Shown here in pieces: positions 6,692 to 25,343 of a DNA stretch of 43,123 nucleotides; within the stretch, counting starts at the first letter, position 1, and the number at the start of each line of letters is the position of its first letter. The translations under genes and the position numbers were made by a program. Below the pieces are notes generated by a model. It was not told the DNA's origin and searched no databases. It worked only from the letters and a program-made list of their open reading frames with translations. Source of the DNA: Rhodocyclaceae bacterium (GTDB lineage Bacteria > Pseudomonadota > Gammaproteobacteria > Burkholderiales > Rhodocyclaceae); the NCBI GenBank assembly GCA_013426785.1, contig JACDZI010000023.1:1-43123 (forward strand), read 5' to 3'.

Positions 6692-6883
6692 TCAGCCCCT
6701 CGTCCGCAGCAGGCCGCGCGCCTTGAGGCTATTCACCATGTGCATGGCGAATTCGAAGCCGGCGTCGAAGTCGGGCGTGGTGAAGGTGGGCGCGGCCTGC
6801 GCCCGCCGGTGGCGCGGCGCACGGTAACGCGGAAAGGGTATGACAACGGCGGGTTGCGCCGGGGGGGTGCGGTTTTCAGCCAT
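6692..6883 (-). CDS. Small hypothetical protein, first gene of the leftward cassette
   Basis: A 63-residue, proline- and arginine-rich protein (PFPRYRAPRHRRAQAAP) with a C-terminal helix (FEFAMHMVNSLKARGLL). A strong ribosome-binding site (AAGGAGTCATC) precedes ATG 6883, which supports translation. It heads the minus-strand cassette and is followed by the 28-codon frame and the antirepressor. The basic N-terminus could bind nucleic acid, but no family is recognised. Confidence 0.6.
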   Translation of the reverse strand: MAENRTPPAQPAVVIPFPRYRAPRHRRAQAAPTFTTPDFDAGFEFAMHMVNSLKARGLLRTRG

Positions 6884-7228
6884 GATGACTCCTTATCGTT
6901 TAGTTGTAGTGGACTGCTGGTGCTACGGGTGGCGGGCCTCAACTCGGCCGATAAGGACCGGGTAGGTATTTCCCGAGGGTGTTCTATTTCCTACTCTCGG
7001 CCCGCCGTGAAACTTCACTACAAAAAGCAACGCCCCTTTGACGGGGCGGCAGTCGACACATGTCTTTCGGGTGTGCCTTCCGCTTATCGTTCAGTAACGC
7101 CGATTATCCGCGCCGGTTTGACATTGTCAAGACTTTCGGGCAGCGTAAACCGCGCGTAAGTCCTGCCCGCCTCCGGCGGTGTGGCGTGAAAGGGTTCATC
7201 CCTGATCCGTGCGCGCCCGATCCGCATC
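6884..7228. promoter_or_regulatory. Divergent control region between the leftward cassette and the protease gene
   Basis: A 345-base gene-free stretch. It contains: two direct TATTTCC repeats at 6967-6973 and 6985-6991, flanked by GTAGG/CCTAC (6962-6994); a repeated CTTATCGTT-type motif at 6892-6900 and 7083-7091, with the inverted form CGATAAGG at 6949-6956; a hairpin CGCCCC/GGGGCG at 7031-7048 whose minus-strand side is followed by a T-rich run; and TTGACA at 7118-7123 within the palindrome TTGACATTGTCAA. The repeats are candidate operators and TTGACA a candidate -35 box, but no convincing -10 box is seen. Confidence 0.45.
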
Positions 7229-24005: not shown

Positions 24006-24502
24006 TGCGTTACAACGACGTCAGGCCCACCCTCAAAACCGGTGATCTGCTCGCCTGGACGCATGACGGCATCGAGAGCTGGCATGACTTCGAGGTGCAG
24101 CTGGTACGCGTCGGTACTCGCAGCGAGTTCACGCACGTCGGCGTGGCTTTTGTCTTTGCCCAGCGGGTGTTCGTGATTGAGGCGGTGGGCACTGGTGTGC
24201 GCATCTTCCCGCTGTCTCGGCTGCTGCCTTTCTACCTGGTGCGCAAGCCAAAGCCGCTCGGCGAGGTCGCCATCGAGTATGCCTTCCAGCACATCGGCGT
24301 CGAGTATGAGTCGAAGCTGGCGATGGTGCTTGCCTTCATCACCGGAGAGAGCCTGGCCAACAATAAGCGTCTTCAATGCTGCGAGCTGACCCGCGCGATC
24401 TATGACGCCGACGACGACCCGCTGGACTGTGAAGATAAACCTACCAGCGTGGTGCGTGTGGCGATGGAGACGTGGGGGCCACTGGAGTGGGTGGCACCCT
24501 GA
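24005..24502 (+). CDS. YiiX/YebB-like NlpC/P60-type cysteine hydrolase
   Basis: A 165-residue protein with the permuted papain-like pattern: LKTGDLLAWTHDG at the N-terminus, then FTHVGVAFVF with the likely catalytic His, then VIEAVGTGVRIFPLSRLLPF, and a late CCELTRAIYDADD with the likely catalytic Cys. Such enzymes cleave peptide or lipid amide/ester bonds. There is no signal peptide, so envelope action would need help, perhaps from the membrane protein upstream. It sits after the fibre genes, where Mu-like phages often carry accessory (moron) genes. Confidence 0.75.
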   Translation: MRYNDVRPTLKTGDLLAWTHDGIESWHDFEVQLVRVGTRSEFTHVGVAFVFAQRVFVIEAVGTGVRIFPLSRLLPFYLVRKPKPLGEVAIEYAFQHIGVEYESKLAMVLAFITGESLANNKRLQCCELTRAIYDADDDPLDCEDKPTSVVRVAMETWGPLEWVAP

Positions 24503-24510
24503 TGCAAGGC

Positions 24511-24535
24511 GCCGTCCCGCCAGCGCCGACTTTTT
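24511..24535 (-). repeat. Dispersed repeat, prophage intergenic copy
   Basis: The minus strand reads AAAAAGTCGGCGCTGGCGGG then ACGGC. The 20-base core GTCGGCGCTGGCGGGACGGC is identical to the copies at 35788 and 37931. It lies eight bases after the hydrolase stop. Confidence 0.8.
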
Positions 24536-24547
24536 GCTCTTTAACAA
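24535..24547 (+). promoter_or_regulatory. boxA-like sequence
   Basis: TGCTCTTTAACAA matches the NusB/S10 boxA consensus (TGCTCTTTA) seen in rRNA leaders. It lies immediately after the dispersed repeat and just ahead of the promoter. Antitermination activity is inferred. Confidence 0.4.
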
Positions 24548-24552
24548 TCGAC

Positions 24553-24581
24553 TTGACAGCGCCATGCCCGGCGCGGAAAAT
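24553..24581 (+). promoter_or_regulatory. Sigma70-type promoter of the Bro-N gene leader
   Basis: TTGACA at 24553-24558, a 17-base spacer and GAAAAT at 24576-24581. The spacer contains the inverted repeat GCGCC/GGCGC (24559-24574), which could be an operator. The predicted start is near 24588. Confidence 0.6.
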
Positions 24582-24587
24582 CGGCCT

Positions 24588-24659
24588 CACTAAATCAGTG
24601 CGGAAGCCCCACCCGTAAGCCTCGGGGCGACTGCCGGCCCGTTTGGGCCGTTGTTGTTT
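24588..24659 (+). ncRNA. Predicted ~70-nt structured RNA or attenuated leader
   Basis: From the predicted start the RNA would form a small stem (CACT/AGTG, 24588-24600), a second stem GCCCC/GGGGC (24606-24628) and a terminator hairpin (24635-24650) followed by a T-rich tail. It could be a free-standing small RNA or the prematurely ended leader of the Bro-N gene. Structure was read by eye; expression is not known. Confidence 0.45.
24635..24659 (+). terminator. Intrinsic terminator within the Bro-N leader
   Basis: A perfect 6-bp stem CGGCCC/GGGCCG with loop GTTT, followed by TTGTTGTTT. It lies about 135 bases upstream of the Bro-N start and would end most transcripts from the promoter at 24553. 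Confidence 0.65.
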
Positions 24660-24723
24660 CTAAGTTTCACGCCGGGAAGAGAGACGGAAATAAAAGAGGC
24701 GCAAGCCGAATACCGTCCAGGCT

Positions 24724-24790
24724 CCACTGAGCCTAGTTGATTCCCGGCACCCGTAGTAACGGCAGTTCCCATCAACTTAATCAGTGGAGG
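24724..24790 (+). promoter_or_regulatory. Shine-Dalgarno-masking hairpin upstream of the Bro-N gene
   Basis: CCACTGA (24724-24730) and AGTTGAT (24735-24741) are exactly complementary to TCAGTGG (24781-24787) and ATCAACT (24771-24777). The long stem has a small internal loop and an apical CCGT/ACGG hairpin (24751-24762). The stem covers the start of the GGAGG ribosome-binding site (24786-24790). TCAGTG at 24595-24600 is an identical copy of the masking partner and could compete for CCACTGA, freeing the site. Confidence 0.6.
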
Positions 24791-24794
24791 CTAT

Positions 24795-25343
24795 ATGGCC
24801 AAACTCAAAGAAACACCCGCAGCGGCTACTCACCGCTTCGATGCTGTCCCGATCCGCGTCCTGTTCGTCGCCGACGATCCGTGGTTCTACGCGGCTGACG
24901 TGCTGGATGCGCTCGCCGCACCGCGCACCCTGCTCGACGTGCTTTCCGACCAACCCGGTGCAGTCAACGTTAACCGCGACGATCCCATCATCAGTGAGTC
25001 CGGCCTGCATCGGCTGCTCTTCGAGGTTGATTCGGACACCGCCCGCCGCTTCCGCCGCTGGCTGGCGGCAGAACTGTTCCCGACCCTCTACCGCGATGAA
25101 TACATCGCTCGGTTGCGGGTGATGGTCAAGGAGGCGCGCGTTATGTCTGGTGGTGATGCGAAGCGAGGAAAGTATCGCCATTACACCCCAGAGGAGAAGG
25201 AGGAGATTCGCAGCCTATACAAGGATGGGTGATCCGTCACGGGGTTGATGCGTAAGTTCATGCGGTCCGACGAGTCAATTCGTGCCGTGATCAGGGGTTG
25301 TTATCCTCACCAGCGTAAAGCAGCAGAGCGGGAGGTGTCATGA
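24795..25343 (+). pseudogene. Bro-N antirepressor-type gene interrupted by in-frame TGA
   Basis: The open part (24795-25232) encodes 145 residues. Residues about 18-105 are a Bro-N domain (IRVLFVADDPWFYAADVLDA; IISESGLHRLLF; FRRWLAAELFPTLYRDEY). The C-terminus begins an HTH-like segment (YTPEEKEEIRSLYKDG) and stops at TGA 25230-25232. Beyond this TGA the same frame continues with SVTGLMRKFMRSDESIRAVI and runs to TGA 25341-25343, overlapping the next gene's ATG. The joined sequence reads as one HTH, so the gene was probably 182 residues with a codon such as Trp at the TGA. Nonsense mutation is likelier than readthrough, but the truncated protein still has the whole Bro-N domain. Confidence 0.75.

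Follow-up and report, generated by a model that had tools for sequence, protein, structure and literature searches.

A candidate C4-type antisense module, similar to sRNA-Xcc1, in the leader of a prophage Bro-N antirepressor gene

This study concerns the leader of an antirepressor-like Bro-N gene in a 43,123-nt stretch of contig JACDZI010000023.1 from a Rhodocyclaceae bacterium (assembly GCA_013426785.1), referred to here as the window. The gene (24795..25232, plus strand, like all features below unless stated otherwise) encodes 145 aa with matches to PF02498 (E 8.4e-10) and to PHROG anti-repressor families. Upstream of it lies a promoter-like TTGACA-17-GAAAAT (24553..24581), with a predicted transcript start at about 24588; it is the sole such site within 24400-24830, where 0.1 would be expected from shuffles. 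It is followed by a putative decoy, a b1-like copy of the target (ATCAGTGCGG, 24594..24603), in which TCAGTG (24595-24600) matches the antisense loop and occupies the place where relatives have their decoy copy, by a hairpin GCCCC-ACCCGTAAGCCTC-GGGGC with the motif CACCCGNNAG (24606..24628), and by a terminator-like CGGCCCGTTTGGGCCG + TTGTTGTTTC (24635..24660). Thereafter comes an sRNA-Xcc1-like antisense RNA (24671..24756), recognized by its match to RF02221, its covariation and its fold z-score. It comprises a closing stem (24671-24678/24741-24748, GCCGGGAA/TTCCCGGC), P2 (24683-24687/24713-24717 and 24698-24700/24705-24707) and P3 (24719-24724/24729-24734). Its loop segment b' (CTCCACTGA, 24722..24730) and its linker a' (AGTTGAT, 24735..24741) are complementary to the targets b2 (24781..24790; TCAGTGGAG at 24781-24789) and a2 (ATCAACT, 24771..24777), respectively, and b2 includes the Shine-Dalgarno sequence GGAGG (24786-24790).

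Together, the nine pairs of 24722-24730/24781-24789 and the seven pairs of 24735-24741/24771-24777 form a stem that covers the GGAGG before the ATG at 24795. A preliminary description of this DNA had proposed such a long stem over the Shine-Dalgarno sequence, as well as the promoter and the TCAGTG at 24595-24600, and all three were borne out. Folding of 24588-24800, which it had suggested, showed the leader to be more stable than its shuffles (z -2.72, 1/200 as good). The segment 24671-24750 alone reaches -34.1 kcal/mol (z -5.79, 0/200 shuffles as good). A compact alternative fold of 24671-24748, located between the terminator and the target and absent from the preliminary description, is the part that is conserved in relatives. 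This fold competes with the Shine-Dalgarno stem, and 24671-24810 yields -44.5 kcal/mol when forced into either of the two.

The RNA was found to match RF02221 (sRNA-Xcc1) along the full model at a relaxed threshold (42.9 bits, E 1.7e-6) and does not reach the curated cut-off of 53 bits; the nearest relative by layout, L055, scores 53.6 bits. When aligned to RF02221, the window RNA shows the consensus fold, with stems that covary. In an alignment of 32 sequences hand-picked from 66 matches, window included, 98.7% of the cells in the closing stem and the inner hairpin are paired, a value that falls to 59.1% when the partner is shifted by one column. Nine of the 12 pairs show changes on both sides, with 45 double-change cells, and none of 500 shuffles was as high. 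With regard to distribution, 21 of 249 genomes from the same family carry an RF02221 match (20 above cut-off), as do 27 of 369 genomes from the class (12 above cut-off), the window's own genome being included in both counts. None was found in 14 control genomes, where laxer filters gave two matches below cut-off. The core pattern of the sRNA-Xcc1 family is found in at least 120 matches in each of two collections.

Two sets of loci were compared. Set 1 comprises 65 loci, the 66 matches minus the near-duplicate L094; the decoy test used 64, as L064 lacks upstream sequence, and 62 have a downstream protein, three of the 65 being without a usable open reading frame (ORF). Set 2 starts from 160 loci listed out of at least 240 stretches, with six loci unplaced and 156 RNAs placed, 74 of which are non-redundant; its RNA ends are approximate, and the two sets may overlap. 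In swap tests on both sets, loop, decoy and target change jointly across the loci, and the decoy covaries as strongly as the target or more so. The pairing of the window loop with target b2 ranks first of 65 in both directions. Of 64 loci, 29 have a sigma-70-like site (at least 9/12) at -200..-61 relative to the RNA, versus two in the control stretch, and the motif C[GA]CCCGNNAG lies within 130 nt upstream of the RNA in 27 of 65, versus one in the control. At the ends that would be relevant to a C4-like processing by RNase P to an RNA of about 77 nt, an RCC follows the stem on the 3' side in 50/65 loci (23/74 in set 2, with its approximate ends), while a 5' GG is present in 41/65, where the window has GC. 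The sequence itself shows the parts, the pairings that they allow, and the fact that these covary in relatives. Covariation and conservation in related leaders, whose absence the preliminary description had named as a refutation, were both found, and they support its suggestion that RNA structure may set the expression of the antirepressor.

We put at roughly 80% the probability that the leader works as an antisense module of the C4 type, acting over the antirepressor Shine-Dalgarno sequence, with decoy competition. What the sequence leads us to expect of transcription, processing, translation block and the direction of the decoy effect is as follows. Transcription would begin near 24588, and part of the transcripts would end at the leader terminator, giving an RNA of about 72 nt with the decoy alone. 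The remaining transcripts would run on across the antisense RNA into the Bro-N gene. The segment 24671-24748 would take the compact fold (fold A) and would probably be excised as a separate RNA. Across the Shine-Dalgarno sequence, its b' could pair with b2 and its a' with a2, either in cis (fold B) or in trans, and this pairing would keep the antirepressor from being translated. The decoy, lying upstream, would compete for the same antisense segment, so that the balance between decoy and antisense RNA would set the timing of the antirepressor.

Several observations weigh against this scheme. The window decoy matches the loop over 6 nt only and ranks 14 and 20 of 64 in the swap test; upstream copies of the target are strong in relatives, and the window has this 6-nt b1-like copy and no clear a1. 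Its location and the CGG after it are, however, the same as in relatives. The two mutually exclusive pairings of the preliminary description recur in relatives together with promoter, decoy and terminator, but the decoy pairing in the window itself is short. Likewise, the early terminator it had listed is present as the single terminator-like site in 24400-24830, but 0.4 such sites are expected by chance, which makes it weak evidence taken alone. In 46/65 loci the 70 nt preceding the RNA include a run of at least five T; the window lacks such a run, its tail being TTGTTGTTT.

The relatives place similar modules before a wide range of genes. Among the 62 downstream proteins, seven have a match to SymE, four to Bro-N (window included), four to KilA-N, one to Rha and one to AntA, and at least 35 have none to any Pfam family at E 0.001. 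At the seven SymE loci the RNA lies upstream, and its loop matches the symE leader to a varying degree. The genes behind such RNAs in E. coli are annotated as AntA/AntB, BRO or 'phage antirepressor Ant', and an ORF6N protein follows one of them, by DNA match only. In three of four copies from E. coli and an E. coli phage (L101, L102 and the BRO copy of L104), the loop is perfectly complementary to both decoy and target over 7 nt; the Ant copy of L104 has a G-U pair in the target helix. L104 is an E. coli prophage with two modules (625-710 and 1504-1593) about 800 nt apart, which differ in their loops; one precedes a 'phage antirepressor Ant', the other a BRO protein.

The same anatomy could also serve a different active regulator. 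In an IsrK-type activation, the short terminated leader RNA would act in trans on the read-through mRNA, free the Shine-Dalgarno sequence and switch the antirepressor on. IsrK is described as activating an antirepressor operon mRNA in this manner (PMC4825925), and the strength of the decoy covariation is in line with such a role. IsrK is, however, reported there to bind a stretch of about 30 nt in orf45 rather than a copy of the Shine-Dalgarno sequence, the isrK model, at E up to 10, matches neither the window nor L035 and picks up L042 at E 3.9 only, and the window decoy is the 6-nt match noted above. We give IsrK-type activation as the dominant mode less than even odds.

In a second alternative, comparable to the CI RNA of phage P4, transcription attenuation would dominate: the antisense RNA would bind the decoy in the nascent leader and alter read-through at the terminator. 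The decoy does lie immediately 5' of the terminator, and an arrangement GCGG..CCGC..GCGG..TTTT, whose CCGC is able to pair either way, is present in 34/65 and 33/74 loci and in phage P1. Moreover, of 17 loci from Xanthomonas and relatives, 16 have a decoy that matches the loop (L107, L123, L131, L139, L142, L143, L150, L162, L163, L170, L171, L178, L180, L181, L184 and L111; the exception, L157, shows no match where the decoy usually lies), whereas a loop complement in the Shine-Dalgarno region or near the start codon of the next gene was found in none of the 17. Nevertheless, inspection by eye shows no covariation between the first GCGG and the arm of the terminator, the window lacks this arrangement, and attenuation leaves the Shine-Dalgarno targets unexplained. 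As the dominant mechanism it appears unlikely.

A ligand-binding riboswitch would fit two exclusive folds of equal computed energy but is highly improbable, as the conserved stems bear a variable loop that tracks the target and, in agreement with the preliminary description, no Rfam riboswitch matches the window at E up to 10. Equally improbable is a chance arrangement or a DNA-level inverted repeat, such as a protein-binding site, never functional as RNA: target and antisense strands do form an inverted repeat in a locus known from sequence alone, but the stems change on both sides, loop, decoy and target change jointly, and sRNA-Xcc1 itself is an RNA mapped at 88 nt (PMC2996969).

The C4-type reading also bears on the sRNA-Xcc1 family as a whole. 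The presence of the same layout before many phage and toxin genes suggests a role for this common and poorly understood family. It seems to us likely that acting in trans as a virulence sRNA is not the main role of sRNA-Xcc1, and that the family is instead a widespread and unrecognized sister of P1 C4. As such it would be a portable cassette of decoy, terminator and antisense RNA in phages and other mobile DNA that silences antirepressors, SymE toxins and many unknown proteins, and joint changes in loop, linker, decoy and Shine-Dalgarno region would reset its specificity from locus to locus. The family would thereby gain a testable mechanism. A rule that loop and linker complement the Shine-Dalgarno sequence of the next gene would predict targets directly and widen C4-type control well past P1. 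The SymE loci may offer an answer to the question, raised in PMC12444791, of how sRNA-Xcc1 relates to the adjoining symE gene.

In the available portions of the literature, sRNA-Xcc1 is characterized in Xanthomonas by Northern blot and RACE, with predicted targets (PMC2996969), and appears as an integron-borne sRNA under virulence regulators, with no mention there of a C4-type mechanism. For Xylella, PMC12189769 treats it as an sRNA carried in vesicles; next to one of the copies there, an isrK match is found at a distance of 100 nt and a C4 match farther on. A copy in E. coli O157 has read counts in a table of RNA-seq and ribosome profiling (PMC5331693), and sRNA-Xcc1, Rfam and prophage all occur in PMC12370729. 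In a search that left most subscription journals outside, no paper was found naming sRNA-Xcc1 and antirepressor together, and sRNA-Xcc1 with 'C4 antisense' was found in PMC12189769 only.

The Bro-N gene lies 3' of contractile-tail phage genes (terminase, portal, head, sheath, tape measure and baseplate), and two tRNA-Lys genes lie beyond it. Its frame stays open beyond the TGA (25230-25340), and the extra piece gives a weak winged-helix match (PF23159, E 0.024). Upstream of the promoter, 24509-24537 holds a terminator-like repeat, CGCCGTCCCGCCAGCGCCGACTTTTTGC, with at least 40 further near-identical matches on both strands of its own genome, a lower bound since 40 of 682 candidates were scored. 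Directly 5' of the promoter is TGCTCTTTAACAAT (24535-24548), which we take to resemble the rrn boxA antitermination site. A second module of like kind occupies 6692..7130 on the minus strand. It has a promoter-like site (TTGACA 7130-7125, GATAAT 7108-7103), a decoy CGATAAG (7089-7083), an RNA (7006-6923) scoring 38.8 bits on RF02221, under the cut-off, a target CGATAAGG (6898-6891) and an ORF of 63 aa (6883-6692 including the stop) without a PHROG match. This module sits among the head genes of the same prophage, opposite to their direction.

Among known systems, IsrK (RF01394, Gifsy-1) shares with the module a terminated leader RNA, a read-through antirepressor-operon mRNA and two alternative structures (PMC4825925), but differs by the intervening orf45 and by the pairing site. 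The P4 CI RNA (seqA, CI, seqC), likened by description only, is an antisense RNA with complements upstream and downstream (PMC4825925), but terminates transcription of replication genes. sRNA-Xcc1 has the same fold as the window RNA, which matches at full length below cut-off. Rfam clan CL00128 lists C4 and c4-a1b1, the latter tabulated in PMC2864571, while sRNA-Xcc1 is in no clan. At E up to 10, neither the C4 (RF01695) nor the c4-a1b1 (RF03163) model matches the window, L035 or L042, whereas P1 C4 itself scores 68.8 bits on the C4 model. By these model tests, the module belongs neither to C4 nor, if the curated cut-off is applied, to sRNA-Xcc1.

The similarity to P1 C4, whose RNase P processing and loop roles are recounted in PMC5320573, lies in the layout. 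P1 has promoters, a1 (48255-48261), b1 (48269-48276), the C4 RNA (48343-48419), a2 (48423-48429) and b2 (48452-48459), then icd at 48470 and ant1 after it, an order of promoter, a1b1, C4, a2b2 and antirepressor-operon gene. The window has promoter, b1-like decoy, terminator, RNA, a2, b2 and gene. The RNAs measure 77 nt in P1 and 78 nt in the window, with b1-to-RNA spacings of 66 and 70 nt, and in both, as we read P1 C4, b' sits within the loop of a hairpin and a' within the linker that leads to the closing strand. P1 C4 has a different inner hairpin and a shorter closing stem, whereas the window RNA begins with GC; P1 C4 ends in ACC, and its target is icd, which is coupled to ant. The P1 b1 is followed by GCGG-acaa-CCGC...GCGG-TATTTTT, a grammar shared by the sRNA-Xcc1 leaders of E. 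coli and not by the window. One feature of C4, the complementarity of a'/b' to a2/b2 across the ribosome-binding site of the gene that follows, was found in the window at rank 1/65. The closest known kind is the C4-type antisense RNA of phage P1 rather than a ligand riboswitch, and given that the module would, by analogy, act like C4, we have chosen to refer to it as sRNA-Xcc1-like, C4-type.
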